Shown here: piece by piece, positions 19,201 through 43,464 of the stretch
How positions within the stretch are numbered: position 1 is the first letter of the stretch
Layout of the letters: every line of letters begins with the position of its first letter
NCBI GenBank assembly: GCA_016191285.1
Contig: JACPPA010000016.1
Location: 62,001-126,000, forward strand
Reading direction: 5' to 3'
DNA: 64,000 nucleotides
Source of the DNA: Gammaproteobacteria bacterium
Lineage (GTDB): Bacteria > Pseudomonadota > Gammaproteobacteria > Ga0077536
The notes under the pieces: generated by a model
The model's database searches: none
Told to the model about the DNA's origin: nothing
The model's input: the letters and a program-made list of their open reading frames with translations, nothing else
Program-made: the position numbers and the translations under genes

Positions 19201-19854
19201 CTCACCAAAGAAATTAACTATTGGGATCACCGCGCCGAAGAACTCAAACTCCAGGAACAGGCCGGTAAACCCAACGCCAAGCTCAATTCAGATGAAGCAC
19301 GTAAACGCGCCGACCTTCTGCAGGGCAGGCTGCAAAAGCGACTGGAAGACTTGAAGCTCGAAGCCCAGCTATCACCGTTGCCGCCCGTGGTCCTCGGCGG
19401 CTTACTGGTAGTGCCAATCGGCTTGCTCAAAGCGATGGCGGGGCAGGTAGCAGGCGCGCCTGCGGCACCAGTCGACACTCAGGCCAGCGCTGCCTGTGCG
19501 CGTGCCATCGTCATGGACATCGAGCGCAGCTTGGGCTTTGAGCCGGTCGACCGAGAATTCGAGAAGCTCGGCTATGACATCGAGAGCCGGATCCCGGGCA
19601 GCGGCAAGCTTCGTTTCGTCGAAGTCAAAGGCCGCGTTTCGAGCGCGCCCACCATCACCGTGACACGCAACGAGATTCTCTATTCGCTGAACAAGCCCGA
19701 GGACTTCATCCTCGCGATTGTTGAATTCCTCGATGACAGGGCACATCGGGTGCATTACTTGCGCGAGCCGTTCCAGCGTGAACCCGACTTCGGAGTCACG
19801 AGTGTGAACTACGATTTCGCCGAACTACTGCAGAGGGCCGGGAAGCCGAGGTGA
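16258..19854 (+). CDS. SNF2-type DEAH helicase, DrmD-like, with C-terminal DUF3883
   Basis: A 1,198-residue helicase. Its opening ASVRGILPDGLVAVVSVQW is the hallmark start of DrmD-like helicases of DISARM. Walker A is DDPGAGKTIMAG (about 127-138), DEAH box CDEAHK (about 229-234), LLMTATPHNG (about 265-274), and motif VI QRFGRIHRIGQ (about 624-634). An acidic insert (about 435-465) separates the two RecA lobes. The C-terminal end carries DUF3883 (GSGKLRFVEVKGR, about 1110-1125). It starts at a GTG and its stop overlaps the next gene (GTGA). It likely translocates on DNA for a defence complex. DISARM partners drmA, drmB and drmC are absent, so this is not a standard DISARM locus. Confidence 0.85.
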   Translation: MKLEELQHNASVRGILPDGLVAVVSVQWYGSEALELTYKTSSGKVANELLYRHDEPRLEIVEQGRPWSFDGDGALFRLVSEAQRIRLAHLFDPVLAVHTSVVEPLPHQITAVYESMLPRQPLRFLLADDPGAGKTIMAGLLIKELIARGDLQRCLIVCPGSLAEQWQDELFRRFHLPFEILTNDKLEAARTGNWFLETNLIIARLDKLSRNEEVQQKLQAPDCRWDLVVCDEAHKMSATVFGGETKYTKRYKLGQLLSTLTRHFLLMTATPHNGKEADFQLFMALLDGDRFEGRYRDGVHTADVSDLMRRMVKESLLKFDGTPLFPERIAYTVPYKLSEAEAYLYKIVTDYVREEFNRAEALENDKRAGTVGFALTILQRRLASSPEAIYQSLRRRRERLESRLRELEVLQRGGQVAPILLPTAPALDSDDVEDLEEAPDNEVEAAEEEILDQATAARSIAELRIEIETLKALEANALAVRRSGTDTKWRELASLLSEIFTPTGLANSPAAGDRVAEPDAPYGPGRIPPPKASPHQKLVIFTEHRDTLNYLEQRVTTLLGRKDAVVLIHGGIGREERLKIQESFRHDPEVQVLLATDAAGEGINLQRAHLMVNYDLPWNPNRIEQRFGRIHRIGQTEVCHLWNLVAEETREGDVYRKLLEKLEQARQALGGQVFDVLGRLQFEGKSLRELLIEAVRYGERPEVQAFLSTVLDTALDRSHLQTLLDERALAHDAMDASKVQRIRADMERADARRLQPHYIESFFHEAFKILGGNAKQREARRYEITHVPAPVRNRDRLIGIGEPVLPRYERIAFDKALVAPQGQPLAAFVCPGHPLLDSVIDLTLERNRDLLKRGTVLVDERDTGTSPRVLFYLDHAIQDAGVTRAGDRRVVSKRMLYVEMESTGTVRHVQYAPYLDYRPLAAGEPTSDTILDRTECQWTNRDLEHKAQSYAIADVVPEHLAEVRGRRVELVAKTESAVKDRLTKEINYWDHRAEELKLQEQAGKPNAKLNSDEARKRADLLQGRLQKRLEDLKLEAQLSPLPPVVLGGLLVVPIGLLKAMAGQVAGAPAAPVDTQASAACARAIVMDIERSLGFEPVDREFEKLGYDIESRIPGSGKLRFVEVKGRVSSAPTITVTRNEILYSLNKPEDFILAIVEFLDDRAHRVHYLREPFQREPDFGVTSVNYDFAELLQRAGKPR

Positions 19855-27000: not shown

Positions 27001-27096
27001 GCCCTCGTGCAGAGCTGGCCCGAAATAGTCCGCCTGGCACGAGAGCGTGCGAGCGCGCAGCCCAGTCAAGGCGGTCTATTCGATACGGAGGAGTAG
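24055..27096 (+). CDS. DUF1156-containing DNA methyltransferase (DPPY motif)
   Basis: About 1,013 residues from the ATG at 24055 (24061 also possible). The DUF1156 N-terminus is clear: IEVALPLDAINKACAREKSI followed by HPSTLHLWWARRPLAAARA. The SAM-binding motif is HDPFAGGGALPLEAQRLG (about 184-201) and the catalytic motif is STDPPYYDNVPYADLSDFFY (about 612-631), as in N6-adenine or N4-cytosine methylases. A C-terminal segment of about 250 residues follows without a named fold. It overlaps the sacsin-like gene. In a defence operon it would mark host DNA as self; the base and sequence methylated cannot be read from the protein. Confidence 0.87.
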   Translation: MTMTATHKKKLIEVALPLDAINKACAREKSIRHGHPSTLHLWWARRPLAAARAVIFAQMVDDPSAYVDTLRADPKLKRRAESTLKARLKLWEEARELARKAKGTNLVVPEPGPQPTLDDMLSDIERQRLFRIIEDLVLWENTTNEAVLQAARDEIWQSWRRACAENVDHPRAKELFERKKLPAFHDPFAGGGALPLEAQRLGLESYASDLNPVAVLINKAMIEIPPKFAGLAPVNPKSRQDENLFAREWKGAQGLADDVRFYGQWMRDEAEKRIGHLYPRIKITAKIAEARPDLIPYIDRELTVIAWIWARTVKSPNPAFAQVEVPLASTFMLSTKPGREAFVEPVIEKGSYHFTVKMGKPKDVNKAKRGTKLSRGANFECLISGMPITGDYIKAEGKGGRMGERLIAIVAEGDRERVFLAPLPEHEALARNVTPEWKPEGSFVEDARAFTPCIYGIKEWQHLFTGRQLVALTTLSDLVKGARERVQRDAVVSALPVDGLSLKDGGTGITAYADAVAVYLSFAVDRVVDRHTRIATWDSSPSKLQLRNTFARQAIPMTWDFGEGNPFCMSSGTWTPSVEWVSKAIDFLPARGLGTATQAEASSQAISCDRVISTDPPYYDNVPYADLSDFFYVWLRHSLKPVLPDLFATLAVPKTEELVAVAYRHDSKASAEAFFLNGMTRAMHRLAEQSHPAFPVTIYYAFKQAENDDAEGTASTGWETFLDAVIRAGFATTGTWPMRTELGNRMRGMASNALASSIVLVCRRRAPDAATATRREFVAALKGELSLALSHLQHGNIAPVDLAQAAIGPGMAIFTRYTEVLDAGGKPVSVREALSLINQTLDEALAEQEGDFDADSRWALTWFEQSGFAEGEYGVAEQLSKSKNTSVAGMVEAGILESKRGKVRLLAPADLPADWDPAIDPRLTAWEIVHHLIRVLESGGEGAAGELVVKLGARAEIGRELAYRLYTLCERKKRAAEALAYNALVQSWPEIVRLARERASAQPSQGGLFDTEE

Positions 27097-27226
27097 CCCG
27101 TGGCCATCACGTTCGAGGAACGCATCGCTTTAGTCGACCCAATAAGTTCGCGAGAACCTCGAGAAGACCGCAGAGGCGCCCGGGTCGGCGACGCCTGATG
27201 GAACCCAAGGGTGAGGGGACTCGAAA

Positions 27227-27793
27227 TTGATCGTCGGTAGCTGCTTTGGTGGCGATGACGGTGAATATCTGGCTTCGATCCAGCATGGAGTGTACGGCCA
27301 AGCAATTCAGATTATGGTATCGACGTGCAATCGCTACGCAGCCTTCGCCAAGGGCGTACTGGATGACATTAGCAAGGCCTTGCTGGATTACATTAACCAC
27401 CGCCGCTGGGGCAACATCTACAGGTGTGATCACCGCGCGCTCCAGGATGCTCATGATCTTCTCGCCGCAGTCTGGCGCTTTCGATACGATTCTCGTCAGG
27501 GGGCGCTGACGTTTGGAGACATTGAGTCACCCAAGGCAGCCGAATTCCCCTAGCTCGATTGGCTCCGCAATGAAGTCTCCAATTGGATCGACCGACCCTA
27601 CTTGGTTCGATCGGTGCAGGTGATCTTGGTGAACCAGAACAAATTTACCGGCTATTTGGCTGAGTCCAAGTTGTGCGTCGACATCATGCACTGTTTCCCC
27701 GATGTCCCTTGGACAAGGGGTCGGTACGACGCTCACACAAAAAGACTTGCGGACTTCATGGAAACCCTCAGGAACGCAGCAAACGAGAAGTAA
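27227..27793 (+). pseudogene. Broken small gene between the methylase and the DUF499 ATPase (in-frame TAG)
   Basis: A single reading frame of 188 codons is interrupted only by an amber TAG at 27551-27553. Before it the frame encodes EYLASIQHGVYGQAIQIMVS and RALQDAHDLLAAVWRFRYDS; after it, LDWLRNEVSNWIDRPYLVRS and LAESKLCVDIMHCFPDVPW, ending RLADFMETLRNAANEK just before the DUF499 start. The only start is a weak TTG. A 33-codon GTG frame (27100-27198) with a GGAGGAG ribosome site precedes it in another frame and may be the detached N-terminus. I do not recognise the family. It looks like a decayed cassette gene, though readthrough or sequencing error cannot be excluded. Confidence 0.55.
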
Positions 27794-27796
27794 CGC

Positions 27797-30700
27797 ATGG
27801 CCATTACAAACCAGGAGCGGATCGGCAAGGCGATGGAACTGCTTCGAGCAGGGCTTGCGCCCTTCGTCGAGCGTGAGTTCAGGAGCCAACACCAACAGAA
27901 AGCACCCGAAGAGGCGCGCCGTTACTTCGGCGATGATCGGACGATTGGCAAAAAGCCGATTGAAGAGTGGGACGTGGCTGCGCTGCTCAAATTGATGTGG
28001 GAGGCGTGGAACGAGATCTTTGGGCGAACTCTCGGCCGCGCCGAGCGATCGCTGGTGCAAGAGTTGCGCGACTGCCGCAACAAGTGGGCGCACCAGGAAC
28101 CGTTCTCAAGCGACGACGCCGACCGTGCGCTCGATTCAATGGCGCGGCTGCTCACAGCAGTCTCGGCGCCACAGTCGGACGAGGTCGGCAAGATGAAAAT
28201 GGAGCTGCGCCGGCTCACCTTCGACGAACAGGTTCGCAGCGAAAAGCGCAAGGCCGGCGGCTCGTTGATCGAGGTAACCGGGACCGGCACGCTTAAGCCC
28301 TGGCGCGAAGTAGTCACACCTCATGCGGACGTTGCGAGCGGGCGCTACCAGCAGGCGGAGTTCGCCGCTGATCTCTGGCAGGTGCACTTGGGCGAAGGAT
28401 CGGACGAGTACAAAAAGCCCCAGGAGTTTTACCGCCGAACCTTTCTTACGGAGAGCTTGAAGCAACTGCTAGTAGGCGGCGTACAACGCATCTCGGGTAA
28501 GGGCGGCGACCCGGTGATCCAACTCCAGACCAACTTTGGCGGCGGCAAGACGCACTCCATGCTGGCGCTCTACCATCTGTTTTCAGGGGTGAATGCCAGC
28601 GAGTTGGTGGGAGTCGACGCGGTGTTAGCTGATGCGGGGATGATGAGCCTGCCCACGGCCAAATGCGTGGTGCTGGTGGGCAACAAGATCTCGCCTGGTA
28701 ATCCCATCACCAAAGCTGATGGCACAGTGGTGCGCACATTGTGGGGCGAGTTGGCCTGGCAGCTTGGCGGTAAGGCAGCGTATGCGCGCATCAAGGATGA
28801 CGATGAGAACGCCACCAACCCAGGCGACGTGCTACGTGAGCTATTCAAGGAATACGGGCCTTGCCTGATCCTGATCGATGAGTGGGTTGCGTATGCTCGT
28901 CAGCTTCATGACCAGAGCGACCTGCCGGCGGGCGGCTTCGAGACCCAGTTCACCTTCGCCCAGGCACTGACCGAGTCGGCCAAGCTCGCCGGAAACTGCA
29001 TGCTGGTGATCTCGCTGCCTGCGTCGGACACGTCGGGCTCACCCCATACGCGAGCGGACGATGTGGAGGTGGGCGGTATCCGCGGGCGCGAGGCGCTCGA
29101 CCGACTGCGCAACGTGGTCGGGCGAGTGGAATCATCATGGCGTCCGGCCACAGCGGAAGAGGGATTCGAGATCGTGCGGCGGCGGCTGTTCGAGCCGCTC
29201 GCAGGGCAAGAATCATTCAAGCAGCGCGACGTCACCGCCCGCGCCTTTGCAGACCTTTATCACGCGCAGAGCGCGGAGTTCCCGCCCGAGTGTAAGGGGG
29301 GTGATTACGAGAAGCGCATCCAGGCCGCCTACCCCATTCACCCAGAGATTTTCGACCGGCTTTACACCGATTGGTCGACGTTGGTGAAATTCCAACGCAC
29401 GCGCGGTGTGCTGCGCCTGATGGCAGCGGTGATCCACAGTCTATGGGAGAAGGGTGACCGCAATCCGCTGATCCTGCCGTCCACAGTGCCAATCGACGAC
29501 CCGCGTGTGCAGTCCGAGCTGACGCGCTACCTCTCCGACAACTGGGCGCCAATCATTGAGAAGGACGTGGACGGGCCGAACTCGCTGCCGCTCAAGATAG
29601 ATGCCGAGCAACCCAACCTTGGCAAGCTGCATGCGACGCGGCGCGTTGCACGCACAATCTATCTGGGGTCGGCTCCGACGGCGACAGCAGCGCATCGCGG
29701 GCTCGAGGACCGTCGCGTGAAGCTCGGTTGCGTGATGCCGGGCGAATCGCCTGCGGTGTTCGGTGACGCGTTACGAAGGTTGGGGGCGGCCGCAACCTAC
29801 CTTTATCAGGATGGCCCGCGATTCTGGTACGCAACGCAACCGACGGTCACCAAGCTCGCCGAGGATCGCGCCGAGCAGCTCAAGCGCGACACCGATAAGG
29901 TGGCGCAGGATTTGGATGATCGGTTGCGGGCTGATCTGCGGAAGGCCGGTGACTTCGCGCGCATCCATCCCCTGCCGCGCTCGGGTGCCGACGTTCCTGA
30001 CGACCTCGATGCACGGTTGGTGGTATTGCCCGCAGAGCATCCCTACAGCAAGGAGACTGGCAATGCGGCCGAAACCATGGCGCGGGCCATTCTTGAGTCG
30101 CGCGGCAATACCCCGCGCTTGTACCGCAACACGCTGGTCTTCCTCGCCGCAGACAAGGTGCGCTTGCAAGACCTGGACGAGGCTGTGCGAAAATTTCTGG
30201 CATGGGAGTCAATTCTGGCCGAGAGAGTGGCACTCAATCTCGATCCGCACCAGGTGAAACAGGCCGAAACGCAATTGCAGGCTGCGGATGGCGCGGTGAC
30301 GGCGCGATTACCCGAGACCTACCAGTGGTTGTTAGTGCCGGAACAAGTTAATCCGCAGGCAGCGATCACTTGGCAGTCAATTCGACTTTCGGGTAGCGAC
30401 CCGTTGGCGGTGCGGGCGAGCAAGAAGTTGCGCAGCGAGGAATTCTTGGTCGCCGCGCTCGGCTCGACTATTTTGCGTAAGCACCTCGACAACGTTCCGC
30501 TCTGGCGGGGCGAGAACGTTGCAATCAAGCAGCTCGTCGAAGACTTCGCGCGCTACCTTTACCTGCCGAGGCTCGCAGGGCCCGATGTGCTGGTCAACGC
30601 CTGCCGCGACGGGGTGGCCTTGCTGACTTGGCAGTCAGATACCTTCGCTTATGCGGAAAGTTTCGATGATGCGGCGGACAGGTATCGCGGTTTACGCACA

Positions 30701-31123
30701 GGGCAGCTGGTAAACCTTTCATCCTATGACTCAGGTGTGCTGGTTAACGCTGAGGTTGCGCGACGACAGAGCGATACGGAAGTCCCGCCTTCCGCGCCGC
30801 CAGGGACATCTCCCCTGGCTCAGCCTGGCCAGTCCCCTAAACCCGACGACATTGGAACTACGGCAACGGCGCTGAAGCCTACCTCGCTTCCGCGACGCTT
30901 TCATGGGGTAGTGACTCTCGATACCGCTCGTGTCGGCCGCGATGCCGGCAGGATTGCTGAAGAAGTAATCGCGCATCTCGCCGGGTTGGTTGGGGCCGAT
31001 GTGACAGTGACGCTGGAAATCCATGCTGATGTTCCGTCTGGAGCCTCTGATACTGTAGTCCGCACCGTGACAGAGAATTGCAGGACGCTTAAGTTTTCTG
31101 ACCACGGGTTTGAGTCAGAGTGA
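27797..31123 (+). CDS. DUF499 family AAA-type ATPase
   Basis: A 1,108-residue ATPase. Residues 1-110 form a helical Swt1/HEPN-like region (LVQELRDCRNKWAHQEPFSSDDA). The ATPase core begins at about 170; Walker A is LQTNFGGGKTHSMLALYHLF (about 240-259) and Walker B is CLILIDEWVAYARQL (about 355-369), both diagnostic for DUF499. The C-terminal part is less conserved and has a Pro-rich linker near 990-1030. DUF499 ATPases recur beside DUF1156 methylases in defence loci. The RNCRNKWAH-type motif (here RDCRNKWAHQ) resembles HEPN/Swt1 RNase-linked segments, so an RNA-cleaving activity is possible but unproven. The ATG at 27797 follows the broken gene by three bases. Confidence 0.85.
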   Translation: MAITNQERIGKAMELLRAGLAPFVEREFRSQHQQKAPEEARRYFGDDRTIGKKPIEEWDVAALLKLMWEAWNEIFGRTLGRAERSLVQELRDCRNKWAHQEPFSSDDADRALDSMARLLTAVSAPQSDEVGKMKMELRRLTFDEQVRSEKRKAGGSLIEVTGTGTLKPWREVVTPHADVASGRYQQAEFAADLWQVHLGEGSDEYKKPQEFYRRTFLTESLKQLLVGGVQRISGKGGDPVIQLQTNFGGGKTHSMLALYHLFSGVNASELVGVDAVLADAGMMSLPTAKCVVLVGNKISPGNPITKADGTVVRTLWGELAWQLGGKAAYARIKDDDENATNPGDVLRELFKEYGPCLILIDEWVAYARQLHDQSDLPAGGFETQFTFAQALTESAKLAGNCMLVISLPASDTSGSPHTRADDVEVGGIRGREALDRLRNVVGRVESSWRPATAEEGFEIVRRRLFEPLAGQESFKQRDVTARAFADLYHAQSAEFPPECKGGDYEKRIQAAYPIHPEIFDRLYTDWSTLVKFQRTRGVLRLMAAVIHSLWEKGDRNPLILPSTVPIDDPRVQSELTRYLSDNWAPIIEKDVDGPNSLPLKIDAEQPNLGKLHATRRVARTIYLGSAPTATAAHRGLEDRRVKLGCVMPGESPAVFGDALRRLGAAATYLYQDGPRFWYATQPTVTKLAEDRAEQLKRDTDKVAQDLDDRLRADLRKAGDFARIHPLPRSGADVPDDLDARLVVLPAEHPYSKETGNAAETMARAILESRGNTPRLYRNTLVFLAADKVRLQDLDEAVRKFLAWESILAERVALNLDPHQVKQAETQLQAADGAVTARLPETYQWLLVPEQVNPQAAITWQSIRLSGSDPLAVRASKKLRSEEFLVAALGSTILRKHLDNVPLWRGENVAIKQLVEDFARYLYLPRLAGPDVLVNACRDGVALLTWQSDTFAYAESFDDAADRYRGLRTGQLVNLSSYDSGVLVNAEVARRQSDTEVPPSAPPGTSPLAQPGQSPKPDDIGTTATALKPTSLPRRFHGVVTLDTARVGRDAGRIAEEVIAHLAGLVGADVTVTLEIHADVPSGASDTVVRTVTENCRTLKFSDHGFESE

Positions 31124-31306: not shown

Positions 31307-32453
31307 ACAAGTAGCGAATATAAGCATTGATGTCGTCCTTCGCGCTGGAATTGAGTGAAAAGTCGCGAGAACGCGTCGCTTATCGCCCCTCGCATGGTTG
31401 TTTCCAACCAGCGAGGCGCACACCAGACCGATCTAGCCTACAACGCGCGCAGCAAGCGCCGCCGCATGATGTACAAGTTCGTCAGCGCACAAGTCACGAA
31501 TAGCCGGTGCGCGTTCTTCTCCAAGCCCCGATAGCGTGTCTTCGCAAAGCCGAACACCCGCTTGATGACCAGGAACAGATGTTCGACCTTGGCCCGAACA
31601 CTCGACTTGGTCTTGTTCTTCGCCCGCTCGACCTCATCGACCACGCCCTTGCGACGATAGCGCCGGTGGGTCATGTCCAAGGCATTCGGCGCACACCGAC
31701 TGATGACCTCGCCCTGGCCTTGATAGGCCGAGTCGCCCCACACCCGTGTCTCCTCGCCATGCAGCAAATCGGGCAGACAAGTCGCATCGTGCACGTTGGC
31801 CGCTGTCGCGGCGACCGAATGAATAACCTTGGTCCGGCTATCGACGCCGATATGCGCCTTCATACCGAAGAACCACTGATTGCCCTTCTTCGTTTGATGC
31901 ATGTCAGGGTCACGCGTGCGGTCTTTGTTCTTGGTCGATGGCGGAGCGCTGATGATCGAGGCATCGACTATCGTGCCCTTGCCAATCTCGATGCCGTGGG
32001 TCTCAAGATAATCATGCACGCGCTGAAAGAGCTTCTTGCCGAGTTTGTTCCGCTCCAGAAGGTGGCGAAACCGGCATACCGTGGTCTCGTCGGGGGCCGC
32101 CATCTGACCGAGGTCGAGGCCGATGAAGCGGCGCATCGACACCGAATCGTACAGCGCATCTTCGACCGCCGGATCTGACAGGTTGAACCACTGCTGCAGA
32201 AAATAGATGCGCAGCATCATTTCGAGCTCTTTGGGCGGGCGCCCGTCGCCAGCCTTGGGATACTTCGGCGCAACCAGCGCGCACAACTCGGTCCATGGCA
32301 CGATGCGGTCCATCTCGTCGAGAAACTTCTCCCGTCGCGTCGTCTTCGCGTACTTTTCAAAGCCCGTGCCCAACGTCAGTTGCTTGCTCATCGCCTACCT
32401 CACCGTCGTCCGAACAACTGCATGATCAGATCGGGCACTTATGCAGAAGTTCC
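31296..32453 (-). mobile_element. IS5-family insertion sequence, 1,158 bp, with TTAG target duplication
   Basis: The ends are imperfect inverted repeats: left GGAACGTCTGAACAAGT and, read on the other strand, right GGAACTTCTGCATAAGT (13 of 17 identical). The element is flanked on both sides by the tetranucleotide TTAG (31292-31295 and 32454-32457), which fits the YTAR duplications made by IS5-group elements. It carries one complete transposase gene on the minus strand and lies at the very 3' end of the P4-type integrase gene. Confidence 0.85.
31438..32391 (-). CDS. IS5-family transposase (DDE)
   Basis: A complete 317-residue transposase beginning MSKQLTLGTGFEKYAKTTRR. DDE residues are visible as GTIVDASIISAP (first Asp), VWGDSAYQGQGE (second Asp) and the Y-R-E-like region SSVRAKVEHLFLVIKRVFGF with the Glu, then TRYRGLEKN. 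The N-terminal FLQQWFNLSDPAVEDALYDS region is typical of the IS5 group. It cuts and pastes its own element. No frameshift or stop is seen, so it may be active. Confidence 0.93.
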   Translation of the reverse strand: MSKQLTLGTGFEKYAKTTRREKFLDEMDRIVPWTELCALVAPKYPKAGDGRPPKELEMMLRIYFLQQWFNLSDPAVEDALYDSVSMRRFIGLDLGQMAAPDETTVCRFRHLLERNKLGKKLFQRVHDYLETHGIEIGKGTIVDASIISAPPSTKNKDRTRDPDMHQTKKGNQWFFGMKAHIGVDSRTKVIHSVAATAANVHDATCLPDLLHGEETRVWGDSAYQGQGEVISRCAPNALDMTHRRYRRKGVVDEVERAKNKTKSSVRAKVEHLFLVIKRVFGFAKTRYRGLEKNAHRLFVTCALTNLYIMRRRLLRAL

Positions 32454-33625
32454 TTAGATGTCGAAAACACAGCCCAGGCCGCCATAAGGTCGGCTCGCTT
32501 GTTGAATAAATCTGTCCGGTTGTACGCGGCTTCCGCTTTATTCTTGATTGTATGCGCCAGCGCGGCCTCGCAGACATCACTAGGAAAGTTGGTACATTCG
32601 GCAGCCCAATCGCGAAACGATGATCGGAAGCCATGAACGGTGATGTCTTTTCCTAATCGGCGCACGGCCATGAGGAATGTCATATTCGATAGCGGCTTTT
32701 GGGGTTTGATGCCCGGAAATACGAACTGATTCTCGGTCGACAATTTCTTTGCTTGTTTGAGTATCTCGACACTGCGCGGAGATAGGGGCACACGGTGCTC
32801 ACGCTTGGCTTTCATGCGGCTGGCTGGGATTGTCCATAGCGCTGCTTCCAGGTCGAACTCACTCCACTGGGCCGCAAGAATTTCATTGGTTCGGGTCGCA
32901 GTCAGGATTAGCAACTCGAAAGCGAGGCGCGCTGACTCGGTAGCATCGGATTTCCGCAACAGTCGAATGAATGCAGGAACGTCGGCATAGGCTAACGCTG
33001 CATGATGTTCGGCGCGGATTGTTTGTCTGGGTAGTACTTTCGTCAATCCGTCGCAAGGGTTGTCGCCAGGGCGGAAGCCCAATGCCTTGCACCAATCGAA
33101 GACCATTTTGATCCGCTGGCGGACCCGTTTCGCGGTTTCGGGCTTGTCCTGCCAAATCGCGAGAAGCGCAGCTTTTACGTCATTGGTATCCACTCCGTCG
33201 ACACGTTTATTGCCGAAGATCGGGAATGCGTATTCGGTGAGGGTGTTTATCCACTGCGCTGCATGTTTCGGGTTCTTCCAACTGCCCGAGTGTTCAGCGT
33301 GGACTTTCTTAGCGGCTTCCTCGAAAGTCGGGATTTCAATCACGGCCTTACGGCGTTCGGCTAGTGGATCGCCGCCGCTGCGGGCTAACTTCCGCATTTG
33401 CGCGGTGAGTTCACGTGCCTCTGCCAAGGTCACGAGACTGATGCCCCCCAGGCCAATGTCGCAACGTTTGCCTTTGATAACTGTTCTAAGAACCCAGCGC
33501 TTGGCGCCGGACGGATCCACTACTACGTAGAGGCCATTGCCGTCGGCGTAGCGCCCCGGCGTTGCGAGCGCCCGGATTGCTACCGCGGTGAGCGCCTTTG
33601 AAGGATGCTTGCCTTTGGTAGCCAT
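32426..33625 (-). CDS. P4-type tyrosine integrase with its last codons supplied by the IS element
   Basis: About 399 residues from the ATG at 33625 (MATKGKHPSKALTAVAIRAL matches family starts; an upstream ATG at 33679 is also in frame). The N-terminal DUF4102-like domain shows GRYADGNGLYVVVDPSGAKR. The catalytic set is present: ATRTNEILAAQW (Arg), TVHGFRSSFRDWAAE (HxxR) and ALAHTIKNKAEAAYNRTD (His, Tyr). The final residues KELLHKCPI come from the IS end; without the insertion the frame would read STSK then TAG, so the core enzyme is intact. These integrases usually insert at tRNA 3' ends, and a tRNA-Ser-like end lies about 150 bases upstream of the start. Confidence 0.87.
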   Translation of the reverse strand: MATKGKHPSKALTAVAIRALATPGRYADGNGLYVVVDPSGAKRWVLRTVIKGKRCDIGLGGISLVTLAEARELTAQMRKLARSGGDPLAERRKAVIEIPTFEEAAKKVHAEHSGSWKNPKHAAQWINTLTEYAFPIFGNKRVDGVDTNDVKAALLAIWQDKPETAKRVRQRIKMVFDWCKALGFRPGDNPCDGLTKVLPRQTIRAEHHAALAYADVPAFIRLLRKSDATESARLAFELLILTATRTNEILAAQWSEFDLEAALWTIPASRMKAKREHRVPLSPRSVEILKQAKKLSTENQFVFPGIKPQKPLSNMTFLMAVRRLGKDITVHGFRSSFRDWAAECTNFPSDVCEAALAHTIKNKAEAAYNRTDLFNKRADLMAAWAVFSTSKELLHKCPI

Positions 33626-33772
33626 TCGAATATCCCACATCCCGTACCACATAATATGTGGGATGGCAGTGGATTTCAATGGAAGTCTCTGGGAGAGAGA
33701 ATCACATAACTATATGTAAATAAAAAACAAAACGGATTTTATCGGATGGCGTTGGACCCTGCAAATACGGAC

Positions 33773-34009: not shown

Positions 34010-36352
34010 GTGCAACCCATAGTGGATCAGGCAACCCACAACAAGATCGTCTCTTTCATTTGGGGCATCGCCGACGATGTGCTGCGCGATCTCTTCAAGC
34101 GCGGCAAGTACCCGGACGTGATCTTGCCCCTGTGCGTTATCCGGCGCATGGACGCAGTGCTCGAGCCGACCAAGCAGCAAGTGCTCGATACCAAGAAGAT
34201 GCTCGATACGGCCCTCATTACCGCGCAGCGCGCGGCGCTCTGTGACGCCGCGGGTCAAGCCTTCTACAACACCTCGAGGTTCACCCTGCGCGATCTCAAA
34301 TCGCGCGGCAGCCAGCAGCAACTCCTCGCCGATTTCGAGGACTATTTGAACGGCTTTTCGCCGAATGTTCAGGACATCCTCGAGAACTTCAAGTTTCGCA
34401 ATCAGCTGCAAACGCTGTCCAAGGCCGACGCCATCGGCACGCTGATCAACAGATTCCTAGCGCCCGACATCGACCTCTCTCCCGCCGGCATCGACAATCA
34501 CGCGATGGGTACGGTCTTCGAAGAGTTGGTCCGCAAGTTCAACGAGGACAACAACGAAGAAGCGGGCGAGCACTGGACGCCACGCGACGCGGTGCGCCTA
34601 ATGGCGAACCTGGTGTTCCTGCCCATCGATTCTGAGATCAAGTCCGGCACCTACTTGCTTTACGACTGCGCCTGCGGCACGGGCGGCATGCTCACCGTGG
34701 CGGAGGAAACACTCGCGACGATCGCCGCGAAACGCAATCAGCAAGTGAAGTGTCTGCTCTACGGCCAGGAGATCAACCCCGAGACCTATGCCGTCTGCAA
34801 GGCCGACATGTTGCTGAAAGGCGAGGGCGAGAGCGCCGATCACATCGTCGGCGGCGCGGAATGGTCCACGCTTGCGCACGACGCATTCCCGGCGCAGGAG
34901 TTCGACTTCATGCTCGCTAATCCACCTTACGGCAAGAGCTGGAAGAAGGATCTCGAGGATATGGGCGGCAAGGACGGGATGCGCGACCCGCGCTTCAAGG
35001 TGATGCACAAGGGCGAAGAACTTTCGCTTGTCACGCGCTCCAGCGACGGCCAGATGCTCTTTCTCGCCAACATGGCGGCGAAGATGAACGCCAAGTCCGC
35101 CCTCGGCAGCCGCATCGCCGAGGTTCACAATGGCAGCTCGCTTTTTACCGGCGATGCCGGCCAGGGTGAGAGCAATATTAGGCGCTGGCTGATCGAGAAC
35201 GACTGGCTCGAGGCCATCGTCGCCCTGCCCCTCAACCTCTTTTACAACACCGGCATCGCTACCTACATTTGGGTGCTGTCGAACAAGAAACCTACGCATC
35301 GGCAAGGTCAGGTGCAGCTCATCGATGCGACGCAGTGGTTCAAACCGCTGCGCAAAAACCTGGGCAAGAAAAACTGCGAGCTCGCGCCTGAGGACATCGA
35401 TCGCATCAGCCAAAGTTTTCTCGAATTCAAGGAAACTCCCGAGTCGAAAATTTTCCCCAACGCCGCCTTCGGCTACTGGAAGGTTACCGTCGAACGCCCG
35501 CTGCGCCTGCACAGTCAGTTGACCCTCAAGGCCATCGAGACCTTGCGCTTCGCCGCGGGGGATGACGATCTGCGCGCTGCGTTGTATGAGGAGTTTGGCG
35601 ACGAGTTGTTCAACAATTTCTCGAAGGTCGCTGCCATGTTGGAGAAGCACCTTGCCGCTTGGGGCAGTGATGAAGAAGAGGGTGACGACGAAGATGGCGG
35701 CACGAAGAAAGGACTACCGGAGAAGAAAAAAAAGAAACTGCTCGACCCGAAGACCTGGGAACGCGACGGTCGTCTGGTCGAAGTCGCTTTGATGCTGCGC
35801 GAGGTGCTAGGTGACGTGCTCTTCGAGGATCACAATGTCTTCTGCGACCGCGTAGATGTTGCGCTCAAGACGGCCGGCATCAAACTCCCCGCCGCCGACC
35901 TCAAGCAAATCCTCAAAGCCGTGAGCTGGCGCATCGAGACCGCGTCGCCCGTCATCGCCAAGGCGCACAAGCCCGGCAAAGCCAAGGCCGATCCGCTGCG
36001 CGGCTTGTTCTCCCTCGCCCCCATCGGGGGAGAGGGTTGGGGTGAGGGGGCAAGGGCCAAGGAAGCCATCGTCGAATACGAACCCGATTCTGATCTGCGC
36101 GACACCGAGCAGGTGCCGCTGCTGGAAGAGGGCGGCATCGAAGCCTTCATCCGCCGCGAGGTGTTGCCCTACACGCCGGATGCGTGGATCAAGGAAGACG
36201 CCACCAAGATTGGCTATGAGGTGAGCTTCACCCGGCACTTCTACCAGCCGCAACCGCTGCGGACTCTTGAAGAAATCAGCGCCGACATTCTCGCCATCGA
36301 GAAAGAGGCCGAGGGGCTGCTGGATGGGCTGCTTAAAGGGGGGCCATCGTGA
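34010..36352 (+). CDS. hsdM: Type I restriction-modification methyltransferase subunit
   Basis: A 780-residue HsdM beginning at a GTG (MQPIVDQATHNKIVSFIWGI). The N-terminal helical domain is followed by the SAM motif LYDCACGTGGMLTVAEETL (about 217-235) and the catalytic NPPYGKSW (about 303-310), typical of N6-adenine methylation. A lysine- and acid-rich low-complexity stretch lies at about 550-585. A copy of a genomic G-rich repeat is inserted in frame at about residues 668-681 (SLAPIGGEGWGEGA). HsdM needs HsdS for specificity; neither hsdS nor hsdR is present here. It overlaps the DUF1016 gene by four bases. Confidence 0.92.
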   Translation: MQPIVDQATHNKIVSFIWGIADDVLRDLFKRGKYPDVILPLCVIRRMDAVLEPTKQQVLDTKKMLDTALITAQRAALCDAAGQAFYNTSRFTLRDLKSRGSQQQLLADFEDYLNGFSPNVQDILENFKFRNQLQTLSKADAIGTLINRFLAPDIDLSPAGIDNHAMGTVFEELVRKFNEDNNEEAGEHWTPRDAVRLMANLVFLPIDSEIKSGTYLLYDCACGTGGMLTVAEETLATIAAKRNQQVKCLLYGQEINPETYAVCKADMLLKGEGESADHIVGGAEWSTLAHDAFPAQEFDFMLANPPYGKSWKKDLEDMGGKDGMRDPRFKVMHKGEELSLVTRSSDGQMLFLANMAAKMNAKSALGSRIAEVHNGSSLFTGDAGQGESNIRRWLIENDWLEAIVALPLNLFYNTGIATYIWVLSNKKPTHRQGQVQLIDATQWFKPLRKNLGKKNCELAPEDIDRISQSFLEFKETPESKIFPNAAFGYWKVTVERPLRLHSQLTLKAIETLRFAAGDDDLRAALYEEFGDELFNNFSKVAAMLEKHLAAWGSDEEEGDDEDGGTKKGLPEKKKKKLLDPKTWERDGRLVEVALMLREVLGDVLFEDHNVFCDRVDVALKTAGIKLPAADLKQILKAVSWRIETASPVIAKAHKPGKAKADPLRGLFSLAPIGGEGWGEGARAKEAIVEYEPDSDLRDTEQVPLLEEGGIEAFIRREVLPYTPDAWIKEDATKIGYEVSFTRHFYQPQPLRTLEEISADILAIEKEAEGLLDGLLKGGPS
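36011..36052 (+). repeat. G-rich dispersed repeat inserted in frame inside hsdM
   Basis: The 22 bases at 36028-36049 match an intergenic copy at 49250-49271 with one mismatch (GAGAGGGTTGGGG versus GAGAGGGCTGGGG). Preceding bases form an inverted repeat CGCCCCCATCGGGGG. Related HsdM proteins, as remembered, pass directly from the DPLRGLF-like segment to VEYEPDSDLRDTEQ, so this looks like a repeat insertion that kept the frame. Confidence 0.6.
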
Positions 36353-37680
36353 AGAAGAAAGCCAATCCTTCACCCAAAAAACCCCGGCACTCCGTGCTGC
36401 CGCCAGTGGGGCGCGAAAAACTTAACCCGGGCGCCGAGATAGAACCGCCCGCGCTCGTGGATGCGGCGGGCCTCCTCTCGGACTTGCGCAGCCTCATACA
36501 GTCCGCACGCCAGCGGATTGCGACAGTCGCCAACTCCACCCAGACGTTGTTGTATTGGTATGTGGGGCGGCGCCTCTTGAATGAGAATCTTCAAGGCGGG
36601 AGGGCCGCGTACGGAAAACAAATTCTCGTGACTGTGTCACGAGAATTGACAGCGGAGTTCGGCCAGGCGTTCACCCTCCGCGCGTTGTATCGCGCCATTC
36701 AATTCTCTCAATGCTTCTCCAATCAAGAAATTGTGTCGACACTGTCGACACAATTGAGCTGGAGCCACTTCATCGAGTTGCTGCCGATCAAGGACCCACT
36801 GGCCCGCGATTTCTACGCCGAAATGTGCCGCATCGAGCGTTGGGATGTGCGCACCTTGCGACTGAAGATCGGCGGCATGTTGTTCCAGCGCACCGCGCTT
36901 TCCAGAAAACCGGATGCCGTTATCTCGGCGGAGATCGCCAAGCTCCGGGACGGGCAGCTAACCCCTGACCTCGTCTTTCGCGATCCGTACTTTCTCGACC
37001 TGCTGGGACTCACAGGAGCCTATAGCGAACGCGATCTGGAGAGCGCCATCCTGCGCGAGATCGAAGGCGTCCTGCTGGAGCTGGGTACTGGCTTTACCTT
37101 CGTCGCCCGACAAAAGCGCATGAGCGTCGGCAAGGACGATTTTCATCTCGACTTGCTCTTCTTCCACCGCCACCTCCGCCGGCTGATTGCCGTCGAATTG
37201 AAGCTGGAATCTTTCCAGCCCGCGCATGTTGGCCAGATGGAGCTATACCTGCGGTGGCTGGACAAACACGAACGCGCGCGTGGCGAGGAAGCTCCGATCG
37301 GACTCATCCTGTGCGCCGCCGCCGATGCCGAGCAGGTGGAGCTGCTTGAGCTCGATGCCAAATCCATCCGCGTCAGCGAATACCTCACGGAGCTGCCGCC
37401 GTTGCCGCTGCTCTGCGCCCGGCTGCACCAGGCGATAGAACATGCGCGGGAGAACGCCGCCCGTCGCTTTGCATGTAGAACACCGCGTCCATCCGGACCT
37501 TGCCATCGACCTTGGCATGCAAGTCTTCGCTGGCCATTTTATTGCGGGCCGCGACGGCGAGCTCTGCAGCCGGGTGCTCGCGAAACTTTTCGACGATTAG
37601 CTTGTAGATCGTGTCGGCCTCCGTGCGGTGCGCGCCGCCCAGCTGCGTCAGGCATTGCGCAAGACCGAGCTGAACATTGA
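36349..37680 (+). CDS. DUF1016 (YhcG-like) PD-(D/E)XK nuclease domain protein with a foreign C-terminal tail
   Basis: The first ~373 residues are a DUF1016 protein. The N-terminal DUF1016_N domain includes SARQRIATVANSTQTLLYWY, VGRRLLNENLQGGRAAYGKQ and LSWSHFIELLPIKDPLARDF. The nuclease-like core holds HLDLLFFHRHLRRLIAVELK with the D and ExK residues. After ARENAARR (about 37468) the frame continues for 70 residues that are simply the antisense of the TPR gene; this tail is not part of the family. Homologues often stand between hsdM and hsdS. The gene has been joined here to unrelated DNA, losing at most a few native residues. Activity could persist. Confidence 0.82.
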   Translation: MKKKANPSPKKPRHSVLPPVGREKLNPGAEIEPPALVDAAGLLSDLRSLIQSARQRIATVANSTQTLLYWYVGRRLLNENLQGGRAAYGKQILVTVSRELTAEFGQAFTLRALYRAIQFSQCFSNQEIVSTLSTQLSWSHFIELLPIKDPLARDFYAEMCRIERWDVRTLRLKIGGMLFQRTALSRKPDAVISAEIAKLRDGQLTPDLVFRDPYFLDLLGLTGAYSERDLESAILREIEGVLLELGTGFTFVARQKRMSVGKDDFHLDLLFFHRHLRRLIAVELKLESFQPAHVGQMELYLRWLDKHERARGEEAPIGLILCAAADAEQVELLELDAKSIRVSEYLTELPPLPLLCARLHQAIEHARENAARRFACRTPRPSGPCHRPWHASLRWPFYCGPRRRALQPGARETFRRLACRSCRPPCGARRPAASGIAQDRAEH

Positions 37681-38827: not shown

Positions 38828-39172
38828 GGAATAGTGTGCACCGGGGTTTTCAAGACTGTTGTGGGCTCAAGGTATTCCTTGCCGCATATCGACAGCTTCG
38901 GCGAACTAATCACGTACTGCTGCAGACGGGCTGCCACGAGCATACCGATCTGTACCGCTGTGTCGGTCCGTCCCGGAGCACGACGTTATAATCTGGCCCC
39001 GCGTTTAAGTCGCTGTTGCGTTGTTCGCCTTCCACGAAGCGAGAATTCAGTCGCGCCGGTTCACGACGATCACTTGGACACGTCCCTTCGGCCATATAAG
39101 CCTGGTTGCGAACCATGCAATGCACACCATACTGGTGTAATGTGGTGCATCCGACGTTCGAGGGACGCAACG
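38828..39172 (+). other. Gene-free stretch ahead of the RHH-methyltransferase operon
   Basis: About 345 bases with no convincing gene. Only weak shadow frames occur. Its right end carries the nested inverted repeat described separately, so it probably holds the promoter of the RHH and methyltransferase genes. Base composition is mixed and no phage or IS end was recognised. Confidence 0.4.
39120..39150. promoter_or_regulatory. Nested inverted repeat, likely operator of the RHH regulator
   Basis: ACACCA-TAC-TGGTGT (39124-39138) is a perfect inverted repeat nested inside ATGCAC...GTGCAT (39120-39125 and 39145-39150). It ends 22 bases before the ATG of a ribbon-helix-helix protein. Such proteins bind short symmetric repeats and often control their own operons, so autoregulation of the methyltransferase operon is a reasonable inference. 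Confidence 0.45.
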
Positions 39173-39382
39173 ATGAGCTTCAAGAAGATGAGCTCCAAGA
39201 AGAAAACGGTTAAGGCCGACCCCGCGTCGACGTTTCGTACCTCAATTAGTTTTCCGGCCGAGCTCTACCGTACACTTGAGGCACTTGCAAAGCAGAAAAA
39301 AGTATCTGTCGCATGGATTGTTCGTGACGCGGCGGAGACGTACATACGCGAATGGCGGCCAGCGCCTGAGCGAAAAGGATAA
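39173..39382 (+). CDS. Ribbon-helix-helix (CopG-like) DNA-binding protein
   Basis: A 69-residue basic protein. After a Lys-rich N-terminus comes FRTSISFPAELYRTLEALAK then KKVSVAWIVRDAAETYIREW, the strand-helix-helix pattern of ribbon-helix-helix repressors. It lies three bases before the DNA methyltransferase gene and just after a symmetric repeat. It probably acts as a controller protein of this modification gene, similar in logic to C proteins of restriction-modification systems, though the fold differs. Confidence 0.75.
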   Translation: MSFKKMSSKKKTVKADPASTFRTSISFPAELYRTLEALAKQKKVSVAWIVRDAAETYIREWRPAPERKG

Positions 39383-39385
39383 GAG

Positions 39386-40615
39386 ATGGGAAATCTCGAC
39401 AAGCCGAACGCGAAGAAGAGTGCTTTAGCAATTGGTTCTCGGCGCGCAGCATCTCTACTGATCGAAGCTGCCGGCGATACGTCTCCCGTTGCAGGTTTTA
39501 CACATAATTTTTACCGATACCCGGCAAGGTTCTCGCCTAAGCTCGTGCGAGCGGCGATCGAGATTTTTACGCAACCTGGCGATTTGATCCTCGATCCGTT
39601 TGTTGGCGGGGGTACAACCCTCGTCGAAGCGTTAGCACTTGGAAGACACGCTATCGGAACTGATATCAGCTCCCTTGCGACATTTGTCAGCGAAGTAAAG
39701 ACGACTCTTTACACGGAACAGGAGCTCAACACTCTCATCAAATGGATCCGACGGGTGCGGGAAGGGATTAATATCTGGAGCCCTGCGCACGTTAATGCCA
39801 AGTATGAGGCGGCCGGCTATATGCGGCACCTCAACTCAGCAGCAACTTGGCGGCTCGGAAAGGGGATTGCACAGGTCTTGGCCAGCGCCAAACGATTGTC
39901 CACGCCCCAACTCGAAGCGTTTGCGCGATGCGCTGTACTGCGAACTGCGCAATGGGCACTCGATGGCCGTAAGAAGCTACCTTCAATTGATGGTTTCCGC
40001 GATGCCTTAATGTCGAACACGGTGGATATGATCGACGGCGCGCGCGAGTTGCGTAAAGCCGTAAGTGCTGCGGCTGAGAGGCCACCGGTGATCCGTTGCC
40101 TGAACCGGAGCACAAGCGGTTTAGAAACGGAGAAGCTGGTGACGACGGGACGTAAGCCGCGGCTTGTCATCACATCGCCGCCATATCCCGGCGTTCATGT
40201 GCTTTACCACCGGTGGCAAGTGGACGGGCGCAAGGAAACGCCGGCACCCTTCTGGATTGCAAATCGACTCGACGGCGACGGTGCGGCTTACTATACGATG
40301 GGTGATCGTGGTGGCACCGAGCTCAACAAGTATTTTGCTAGCCTCCGTGCGTCGCTCCAGTCAATTGCCGCTTTATGCACCCACGAGACGATGGTTATTC
40401 AAGTAGTGGCATTTTCCGAGCCGTCATGGATGCTCTCACGATATCTGTCGGTGGCGGACGATGTTGGTCTACGCGAACGTTTCTTGCCGCAACTCAGCAA
40501 TGTCGGGGATAGAAGGTTGTGGCGTACAGTGCCGAATCGCAAGTGGTACGCGGACCAACGAGGTGAAACGAACGGTAGCCAAGAGGTCGTGCTGTTTCAT
40601 CGTTTGAAATCATAG
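39386..40615 (+). CDS. DNA methyltransferase (TSPPY type)
   Basis: A 409-residue methylase. The SAM motif is LILDPFVGGGTTLVEALALG (about 67-86) and the catalytic motif is LVITSPPYPGVHVLYHRWQV (about 257-276); the SPPY form is common in N4-cytosine and some N6-adenine enzymes. The order motif I before motif IV and the HNFYRYPARFSPKLVRAAIE opening fit beta-type solitary or type II-like methylases. It is co-transcribed with the RHH gene and its last bases overlap the end of a convergent large GHKL ATPase gene. Specificity unknown. Confidence 0.85.
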   Translation: MGNLDKPNAKKSALAIGSRRAASLLIEAAGDTSPVAGFTHNFYRYPARFSPKLVRAAIEIFTQPGDLILDPFVGGGTTLVEALALGRHAIGTDISSLATFVSEVKTTLYTEQELNTLIKWIRRVREGINIWSPAHVNAKYEAAGYMRHLNSAATWRLGKGIAQVLASAKRLSTPQLEAFARCAVLRTAQWALDGRKKLPSIDGFRDALMSNTVDMIDGARELRKAVSAAAERPPVIRCLNRSTSGLETEKLVTTGRKPRLVITSPPYPGVHVLYHRWQVDGRKETPAPFWIANRLDGDGAAYYTMGDRGGTELNKYFASLRASLQSIAALCTHETMVIQVVAFSEPSWMLSRYLSVADDVGLRERFLPQLSNVGDRRLWRTVPNRKWYADQRGETNGSQEVVLFHRLKS

Positions 40616-43174
40616 AGCGGCTGCAGCTCCCTCGCCCCCTTCGCTGTATTCGGCCATGCCAACTAAGTCACTTTGATCGAGGTCATCCTCGCCTAGATCT
40701 CCAAGAGTCTGAATCATGGGGAGCAAGACCGGGGCAACTGCGCGGCTCAACAACCGCACATTATCCTGAAGACTGGCTTCGGCGTCTTTGTCCGCATCGC
40801 TTTTAGGTGCCGGATGCCTTTTCATTTGGTGCTGGTCATGAATAAGAGCCAAACCGATCAGCACTGCGCCAACTTCGAATTGCTTAAGCAACACGGCAGT
40901 ATTAGCTTTGCTCGCCTTGAGTTCAGTTTGTAGCGAAATGTTTTCCTCATTCAGATAGAACGTATATTCAGTTTGCTGCTTGCCATTTACCTCGTCTGAA
41001 TCTTCGAATAAATCGAGGCACCCGAAATCGTCGTTGAAATGCTCACGCCATTTAAGGTCTGTTCTCGTAAGTCGGATTACTTTCGGTAGTGCAATACCCC
41101 CACGACCGTCTGGCGTAGGACCCGGCTTCTCCCCGGGAGAGTTCGGTTTTACGGATGGTCCAGCGGGTTTCCCAATCTGGGCGGCAGCTACTTGGAGAAC
41201 AAACGTGTTCTTAAAAGACCGCTGCATTACGTCATCTTCAACTATCGCGTCGTAGGTCAGCAGCTCGCCAGGATTTACATTAGCAGGCAGATCAAACGAG
41301 AGAGACGCCCGACCACGCACGAGATTAGGGCCGTTAAATGAAAGAATGGGTTCCGAGCCATCTTTCACCCTACGACTAAAAATAAAACTTCCGGGATCAT
41401 ACTTACGCGTGAAATAGGTATCTTCAGCGTCTGTCGTGAATGTTATTCGGCACCGTTGCTCGAGATGAGCGAAACGTTTAAGTACAAATTCGGGCTCTTT
41501 ACCCGTAAAGTGAAAAAAAGTGGGATGTGAGTGGAGTGTCGGCGGCATCGGGTCGGGCTGGACACTTTCAGGTTTGAAAGGTGTTGATAGACGTTCTCCC
41601 TTAGCAAATAATTTCGCCAGCGTAGGTGAGCTCTTCAATATGTGCTTAAGTACTGACTCGAGCGGCTTGTTGTCACTGAGCTGTTCAGATAAGTCCTGCT
41701 GTGCTCGTCGGTTACGCAGTTCGCGCAGCCCTGGGTGGTCGTGTAGCGCCTCTTCGAGATTACGTTCAAGTTCCGTGAAGAGGGGCGATTCCTCGGCGAC
41801 GCGATCTCGACTACTCATGAACAGATCGTCCCGCTCATTAGCATCGAGAGACGAGCAGTCGACGACTACCAATAAATCCCTCGCCAATCGTTGCAGACCG
41901 ACCCGCTTCCTAGCAAAGATGGAGGCCTTAATGTCTGCGTGAGCTTGGCCATTTACCGTGAAGATAACCCCTTCATTCGAGCGATAAGTTGCGCCTCGGC
42001 CTGGTTTGAACGCGAAAACTCGCGCTATTAGCTGTCGACCGCGGATCGTGATGGGCATGCTAATAGGTGGCGCGTCCTCAAGGTTGTCGCTCTTTTGTAA
42101 ACGAGCGAATAGCCCGCTCATCGTTGTGGTCTGCTCTGATGCCCCTTTTTCACCGACTCCATGGGCACGTTTGCGGCACTCATGCATGCGAATGGGAAGC
42201 GCCGGATCTGGCAGCAGCAAGTCGAGTTTATACAACAGCCCGTCGCGACGAATGATATTACCGGTGCTCTTTAACTGGTAGGCGTAGAGCTTCATTAACG
42301 TCCCCCATTCGACAGCACGTTGGTATGCGTCGTCCCCTTTGGGGAACAATGGCATCGAAGGAGCCATAAAGTGGAGCACTTCCCCGTTACGCGGATTCTC
42401 GCTGGCCCCCAAAGGTGCAAGATACGTCAACACTGGAATCTTACTGTTTGCAGTCGCTTCTTCGCGGCGAACGATTGTGAATCCCCAGTGCTCGTCGGTT
42501 ATATTCTTTGGGTAGGAATGAGACACACTGGCCGCCCCAATTAATTTGGGGTGGCGCCTTGATACGACGAGTTGAAGCTTATTGATTCCACAGTGTCGGA
42601 TAGCACCGCTGCCGCCCTGGCAGAACTTCCCTTGAACGAAGGCTACAGACGCTTTATTCCGCTTACCAAGCGAAACAAAAGTGGAGGGAAACGCCGACGG
42701 TGTATGTCCTTCACCAAGGTCCGCAATATTGACCGAGGGCTTGGTATGCGACGTCGAACCCGGCGCTTCCGTCGTGAAGATTGAAATGTTCTCAGCAGTC
42801 TGAGTGCGAAAACTAGTAGACCAATCCTCAACGCGGCCCCCGGATGTGGTCAGTTTTTCGTGATTCTCAATGAACCTAGCAACTGCGGCACGGATGGATG
42901 GTGGAGCCTCGGGGCTTTCAGGGTCAATTCCGGCAAGCAGGCATTTCAGTGTGAGAACGGCATCAATCGAATTGATGGCCTTTTCATTGAGGGCAAAGTC
43001 CGCTCGTCCCTGTTGTCCACCTGCCTGGGACCAATTAAGCTGGTTGTTGCCGTAGTAGCGCCAACATTTGGGATCGTCCCAATATTCGGCTTTTCTGAGA
43101 ATCGTTATTACGTCGGCTTCGGCGTCTGCATGGATCAATTGTTCGCAAAGCTCTTGGGCGGCATCCGTTGGCAT
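40610..43174 (-). CDS. Large GHKL (MORC/MutL-like) ATPase, probable restriction-type partner of the methyltransferase
   Basis: An 854-residue protein. The GHKL boxes are DFALNEKAINSIDA (59-72; N box), NIADLGEGHTP (149-159; G1) and GKFCQGGSGAIRHCG (182-196; G2). A following domain has TVNGQAHADIKASIFARKRV and LLVVVDCSSLDANERDDLFM, like the S5-type transducer segment of MutL/MORC proteins; the C-terminal half has no named domain. MORC-like GHKL ATPases are described in restriction-modification-like operons. The ATG follows AAGGGG. It is convergent with the methyltransferase and overlaps its end by six bases, and follows an 87-residue gene. A nuclease domain was not found, so the mechanism is open. 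Confidence 0.72.
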   Translation of the reverse strand: MPTDAAQELCEQLIHADAEADVITILRKAEYWDDPKCWRYYGNNQLNWSQAGGQQGRADFALNEKAINSIDAVLTLKCLLAGIDPESPEAPPSIRAAVARFIENHEKLTTSGGRVEDWSTSFRTQTAENISIFTTEAPGSTSHTKPSVNIADLGEGHTPSAFPSTFVSLGKRNKASVAFVQGKFCQGGSGAIRHCGINKLQLVVSRRHPKLIGAASVSHSYPKNITDEHWGFTIVRREEATANSKIPVLTYLAPLGASENPRNGEVLHFMAPSMPLFPKGDDAYQRAVEWGTLMKLYAYQLKSTGNIIRRDGLLYKLDLLLPDPALPIRMHECRKRAHGVGEKGASEQTTTMSGLFARLQKSDNLEDAPPISMPITIRGRQLIARVFAFKPGRGATYRSNEGVIFTVNGQAHADIKASIFARKRVGLQRLARDLLVVVDCSSLDANERDDLFMSSRDRVAEESPLFTELERNLEEALHDHPGLRELRNRRAQQDLSEQLSDNKPLESVLKHILKSSPTLAKLFAKGERLSTPFKPESVQPDPMPPTLHSHPTFFHFTGKEPEFVLKRFAHLEQRCRITFTTDAEDTYFTRKYDPGSFIFSRRVKDGSEPILSFNGPNLVRGRASLSFDLPANVNPGELLTYDAIVEDDVMQRSFKNTFVLQVAAAQIGKPAGPSVKPNSPGEKPGPTPDGRGGIALPKVIRLTRTDLKWREHFNDDFGCLDLFEDSDEVNGKQQTEYTFYLNEENISLQTELKASKANTAVLLKQFEVGAVLIGLALIHDQHQMKRHPAPKSDADKDAEASLQDNVRLLSRAVAPVLLPMIQTLGDLGEDDLDQSDLVGMAEYSEGGEGAAAAL

Positions 43175-43200
43175 CGAATTCCCCTTGTTATGGGTTGTAG

Positions 43201-43464
43201 TTAGAGCTTGAAGTCCACGGTGATCCGACTGCCCTGCTCTGTCATGCGCGCCTTCAGCGCCTCAATCTCTTTGGTCAGTGCGGAGACTATTTTTCTCACG
43301 TCATTATCTTCGTACTGGTAATGCGATCGGTTCCCAAGCTTGCCGATGACGCGTATAGCTTTAATCGCATTAACAGTCCTGCTTTCGGCCAATTTAACGA
43401 ATTTGTGACGTTTCTCTGGAGATAAGTTTTTCGCTGTTTCGCGCTTTTTTAGGACGACATCCAT
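43201..43464 (-). CDS. Small basic protein upstream of the GHKL ATPase
   Basis: An 87-residue protein, Lys/Arg-rich, with the segment KLAESRTVNAIKAIRVIGKL followed by NRSHYQYEDNDVRKIVSALT and a coiled-coil-like tail. Similar short proteins (NAIKAIR.IG.L.NR..Y.Y...DV.KI) occur just before large ATP-binding proteins in putative defence loci, from memory. It lies 26 bases before the ATPase gene on the same strand, so they form an operon. No function is known; it could be a regulator or complex subunit. Confidence 0.65.
   Translation of the reverse strand: MDVVLKKRETAKNLSPEKRHKFVKLAESRTVNAIKAIRVIGKLGNRSHYQYEDNDVRKIVSALTKEIEALKARMTEQGSRITVDFKL

Follow-up and report, generated by a model that had tools for sequence, protein, structure and literature searches.

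A predicted DNA amino-methyltransferase (MTase) and a GHKL ATPase, encoded tail to tail in the 64,000-nucleotide stretch of DNA analysed here (the window), recur as neighbours in nine other loci. We give a probability of roughly one half to the reading of the locus as a paraMORC-type defence unit resembling restriction-modification, in which the ATPase together with an 87-aa cofactor would be the discriminating effector and the nuclease would be supplied in trans. Finding the two genes paired in distantly related bacteria points to an uncharacterised defence system telling self from foreign DNA, a function that we infer from sequence. In favour of this reading are the recurrence of the pair, its presence at all three occurrences of the MTase type in 339 genomes, an ATPase tree whose groups follow modification chemistry, and the position of the small protein, which directly precedes a GHKL gene at 24 of the 26 loci tabulated. 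The setting is also that of a defence island (HMA genes, HsdM, a YhcG nuclease and an integrase share the window), and some loci where the small protein stands with other GHKL ATPases encode type II nucleases or Vsr.

An earlier sequence-only reading of this DNA had proposed four open reading frames, all of which are present where it placed them, and a six-base overlap between the two large genes, which is exact:

39173-39382, + strand: RHH (CopG-like) protein, 69 aa (Pfam RHH_1, E=5.3e-8)
39386-40615, + strand: predicted DNA amino-methyltransferase, 409 aa (Pfam N6_N4_Mtase, E=4e-16)
40610-43174, - strand: GHKL ATPase (P0003), 854 aa (conserved N, G1 and G2 boxes; fold; HATPase_c_3 in the L018 family member)
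43201-43464, - strand: 87-aa protein (homologs just upstream of GHKL genes)
40610-40615: tail-to-tail overlap of the MTase and ATPase 3' ends, 6 bases (read directly from the sequence)

The end of the 87-aa reading frame and the start of the ATPase are 26 bases apart. A promoter and terminator scan of the locus returned no more than background, and an empty-site search within the genus never found both flanks together.

Recurrence of the methyltransferase-ATPase pair

In the nine other loci the MTases are 39-57% identical, and eight of the nine are convergent (L013, L029, L014, L023, L026, L027, L074 and L034), with L016 the one co-directional case. The sequence-only reading had named failure of the two genes to co-occur elsewhere as the result that would refute it, and it is clear that they do co-occur. 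ATPases that are 30-55% identical retain the same convergent MTase neighbour, so the linkage exceeds chance; at E<=1e-40, the 339 genomes of the class contain this MTase type at three places, one of them in the window, and the ATPase adjoins it at all three. The several other defence genes in the window would be in keeping with two chance neighbours within a defence island, but eight other loci, spread over several families and viral contigs, have this pair in tail-to-tail order as well, which refutes chance adjacency, and we leave that explanation a negligible share of the probability. What is kept is the order and not the overlap, which had been read as a device: across the nine convergent loci including the window, the 3' ends range from a 95-base overlap to a 5-base gap.

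Several observations count against a defence unit. MTase and ATPase distances showed no significant co-variation in a mirror-tree comparison of nine loci (r=0.17, p=0.14), with r=0.07 for the seven full-length loci and r=-0.06 when L034 was added. The L034 ATPase is divergent, the MTase of L036 stands with no ATPase in view, and no modification gene was seen near the ATPase relatives L011, L012, L018, L024 and L075. At L034 (8178-11404) the same MTase type and the small protein accompany an ATPase that is about 23% identical, split over two reading frames and placed outside the clade, which suggests a swapped or split effector. The MTase relative of L036 (4009-5181, viral contig) is likely a phage orphan MTase. 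On another viral contig (L013, 9888-11917), SIR2-like and TIR-like reading frames, Thoeris-like by eye, lie directly beside the module. A scan of the genome-contig collection gave a single ATPase relative (L007, 82% identity), on a contig that stops before any MTase could show, and the phage collection held no ATPase relative.

The RHH gene and the putative operator

The sequence-only reading had counted the RHH gene as a member of the unit. It precedes the MTase gene in the window and in L023, that is, in two of the nine convergent loci (window included), and is absent from that position in the seven others. Since it recurs in just one of the eight other convergent loci, the core comprises three genes, and the RHH protein is an optional accessory ahead of the MTase gene. 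The palindromes upstream of the RHH gene that could serve as an operator, ACACCA-TAC-TGGTGT and ATGCAC...GTGCAT, were no better than 300 shuffles (fraction 0.61) and were set aside. The regions upstream of the RHH gene and of the 87-aa gene have no word of at least 9 bases in common. The suggested two-transcript module of modification and attack therefore holds as a modification/effector module of the paraMORC kind, with MTase and ATPase co-occurring in distant genomes, while the balance of protection and activity that was ascribed to convergent overlap or an RHH operator is unsupported, as overlap length is variable and the palindromes stay at shuffle level.

An RHH regulator ahead of the MTase, in a unit without a nuclease, would also fit a host gene-regulation pair, with an orphan MTase and an ATPase shaping expression instead of serving defence. 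The scattered presence in the class (9 of 369 genomes) and the occurrence in viral contigs and defence-island settings speak against such a role, which we consider very unlikely.

The methyltransferase and the ATPase

The MTase carries DPFVGGGTT at residues 70-78 and TSPPY at 263-267, and its best PDB profile matches are the DNA cytosine-N4 methyltransferases 8s9n/8s9m, in the motif-I region only. From these motifs it is probably a DNA amino-methyltransferase acting on N4 of cytosine or N6 of adenine. PADLOC recognised it merely as a generic type II MTase, and through the N6_N4_Mtase match (4e-16) the locus has the DNA MTase of a type II restriction-modification system.

All three GHKL boxes that had been claimed for the ATPase are present (N box E64/N68/D71, G1 D152-x-G154-x-G156 and G2 Q181-G182...G187) and conserved among its relatives, which come from plasmids, viral contigs and genomes and align along most of its length. 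A Pfam scan of P0003 gave no match, while the family member in L018 matches HATPase_c_3 (E=2.7e-5); PADLOC has no family for the ATPase or the RHH protein. The one NCBIfam match, to the BbrUII/HgiDII family (NF050001), is sub-threshold (12.8 bits where the cut-off is 550; E=0.031) and sits at the end of the transducer. Judged by these scans, the ATPase belongs to an unnamed family that is modelled in none of the scanned libraries.

The predicted structure, with a mean pLDDT of only 68.6, places GHKL and transducer domains at about residues 1-440, a helical region at 445-540, an Ig-like domain at 554-663 and a helical tail at 698-823. In fold searches this model matched topoisomerase VI-B in the PDB at 1.6e-7, MORC2 at 1.7e-4 and also gyrase B, while Hsp90-type N-domains reached Z 12.5, and these matches indicate an S5/transducer domain following the GHKL domain. 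When the C-terminal 314 residues were folded separately, they formed a helical tail and a domain that is Ig-like, with a best match of Z 8.4 (rmsd 3.1 over 93 aligned residues); the PDB and VIA lists for this model contain Ig domains over model residues 9-126 and no nuclease row, with residues 698-823 barely covered.

Conserved polar positions past residue 445 are few (R456, D582, R590, E728, N742 and an acidic column at 744) and do not look like a nuclease site in the family alignment. The motif scan of family members found no conserved MutL endonuclease motif, MORC S5 motif or E-D-ExK, the MORC S5 motif GhXhhpXXRhl being without a match in any of 10 members. The earlier statement that the ATPase has no recognised nuclease thus stands for the family scans, the motif scan and the fold search (the last scarcely reaching 698-823). 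No cognate restriction nuclease was recognised in the unit or in the ATPase C-terminus, and this counts against a defence unit.

Two rival explanations bear directly on this result. In the first, the ATPase would itself be a nuclease with an unrecognised C-terminal active site, and the locus a plain type II-like restriction-modification system. The BbrUII/HgiDII family is a precedent for GHKL restriction enzymes, its member L047 has a C-terminal region that is PD-(D/E)XK-like by eye, and D582 and R590 are invariant in the ATPase family; yet there is no conserved acidic cluster past residue 445, no nuclease family matches, and the C-terminal fold resembles Ig domains only (again with 698-823 barely covered). 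This seems to us improbable. In the second, which is the main rival, the ATPase would act without cleavage, trapping or compacting unmarked DNA as eukaryotic MORC does and so blocking its expression or replication. Such a clamp fits the fold matches to MORC2 and topoisomerase VI-B, and also the loci of the amino-MTase clade that were read, where no nuclease gene was noticed adjoining the pair. A nuclease could nevertheless act in trans, Vsr is found near the C5-clade relatives L019 and L076, and type II nucleases are frequent at PDC-M33 loci that share the small protein, so that we rate a non-cleaving clamp as possible though on balance unlikely.

The 87-aa protein

In the 24 of 26 tabulated loci mentioned above (window included), the gap between the 87-aa homolog and the GHKL gene is -4 to 44 bases. 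The homologs precede this ATPase family, PDC-M33A-like proteins, a sacsin-like GHKL group and one 800-aa GHKL-like protein, where the GHKL status of the latter three was assigned from box motifs read by eye and a sub-threshold sacsin match (0.00035). On these assignments, at least three distinct GHKL families have a member of the 87-aa family encoded immediately in front of them. An hhalign comparison of the ATPase with PDC-M33A (E=0.12) and with the sacsin-like group did not unite them. Several of the PDC-M33A-like loci with the small protein have a C5 MTase, Vsr or type II nucleases close by.

The association has exceptions: in two further loci, L046 and L071, the small protein lacks an adjoining GHKL gene, and in L043 a C5 MTase gene lies between the two. 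The small protein is missing from the amino-MTase clade members L014, L015 and L074, with other reading frames in its place upstream of the ATPase (L014 4403-5062, 219 aa; L015 4876-5997, 373 aa; L074 8350-8751, PIN-like by eye). Pfam, NCBIfam and PADLOC have no entry for the 87-aa family; no match in a PDB profile search came in under 0.77, and PHROGs gave one weak match (0.006).

ATPase clades and modification chemistry

In the maximum-likelihood ATPase tree, the amino-MTase loci form one clade (support 100/100) of 11 rows, including L007 and L015, whose contigs are cut off. Of the four rows in a second clade (100/100), three have a C5 MTase neighbour (L025, L019 and L076), accompanied by Vsr in L019 and L076, and neither gene was seen at L024. 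The third (100/99) has four rows: L008, L009 and L010 adjoin Ssp-type genes, and L017 has DndB upstream; PADLOC matched SspB and SspC beside L008. Neighbours of these four relatives at phosphorothioation loci are also annotated as PAPS reductase and DUF4007. The tree offers leads, from sequence, that the ATPase clade goes with modification chemistry (genes for amino-methylation, C5-methylation or phosphorothioation); since the sample is small and was collected by similarity, these groupings are leads and not rates.

Vsr beside the C5-clade relatives L019 and L076 also raises the reading of a MutL-like repair accessory, limiting mutation at methylated sites instead of attacking foreign DNA. Phosphorothioate poses no deamination problem, so the relatives at Ssp loci argue against it, and no Vsr was noticed there or in the amino-MTase clade. 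We therefore see little chance that repair is the function of the locus.

Comparison with known systems

GHKL families of the paraMORC type occur in restriction-modification loci (Iyer et al. 2008, PMC2292703). As in the passages of that paper drawn on here, the ATPase has N-terminal GHKL boxes followed by an S5/transducer domain, a DNA methylase in its neighbourhood and a sporadic presence in distant bacteria. In contrast to the paraMORC proteins described in those passages, P0003 has no Pfam match and carries an Ig-like domain, and the unit has no MORC S5 motif, RE fold, helicase or nuclease gene; an 87-aa partner is not mentioned in those passages. They do report that MORC neighbourhoods mostly, though not always, include a helicase or nuclease gene, and here an HMA helicase and the YhcG nuclease lie further off in other operons. 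The TIR domain that paraMORC4 has in the chain or next gene was found neither in P0003 or P0004 nor among the four genes. The C-terminal RE-fold nuclease (E-D-ExK) of paraMORC3, BbrUII-HgiDII and GHKL-Shedu is likewise absent, with no DUF4263-type Pfam match.

BbrUII/HgiDII systems share a GHKL ATPase with a DNA MTase close by, but their C-terminal nuclease pattern is not seen here and the ATPase scores far below the NF050001 cut-off. In the PADLOC candidate PDC-M33, the same small protein precedes a GHKL-like protein A, and a C5 MTase is present too, frequently along with Vsr or a type II nuclease; the system differs in its extra proteins B and C, in the C5 instead of amino-MTase, and in a profile not alignable with this ATPase, and P0003 has no PADLOC match to PDC-M33A. 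Ssp/Dnd phosphorothioation loci have homologous GHKL ATPases (~27% identity) beside Ssp genes or DndB, whereas sulfur-modification genes replace the MTase and no 87-aa protein was seen there. VcSduA (GHKL-Shedu, paraMORC3) is an anti-phage GHKL ATPase that requires ATP hydrolysis and is described as a single-protein system, unlike the present unit in having a DUF4263 nuclease in the same chain (PMC12137116). A literature search with partial coverage and no sequence search turned up neither the ATPase family nor the small protein, so novelty is unproven.

Proposed mechanism

For the defence unit, we propose that the MTase, given its motifs, would mark host DNA at a sequence motif, while the GHKL ATPase, in a putative complex with the 87-aa protein as cofactor, would be the effector side. 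From its fold similarity to topoisomerase VI-B, gyrase B and MORC2, the ATPase may be an ATP-gated dimeric clamp, which would sense and load on unmarked DNA. Once loaded, the clamp could license this DNA for destruction by a nuclease from another locus, in the way that MutL works with MutH.

A more general version, which we hold to be doubtful, is a self/non-self module in which a nuclease-free GHKL clamp and a shared small cofactor would act on unmarked DNA, with the mark (amino-methyl, 5-methyl or phosphorothioate) differing by clade and the small protein serving as a cofactor common to several defensive GHKL ATPases that are not otherwise related. If true, one effector family would stand behind three DNA-marking chemistries. 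It would also draw attention to a small protein that lies outside the scanned curated libraries and recurs before several GHKL defence ATPases, and whether a nuclease-less GHKL clamp restricts DNA bears on the action of MORC-type proteins, bacterial and eukaryotic, on foreign DNA.

Surroundings in the window

An HMA defence system (HmaA, HmaB and HmaC by PADLOC) occupies 16258-31123; between HmaA and HmaB lies a further, TmtA-like gene (19851-24077) for a sacsin/HATPase GHKL protein of 1408 aa. At 34010-37680 a gene for an HsdM-like MTase (Type I) precedes one for a YhcG/DUF1016 PD-(D/E)XK nuclease, and no HsdR or HsdS was noticed among the long reading frames. Between the HMA genes and the HsdM gene, a DDE transposase lies beside a tyrosine integrase (31438-33679).
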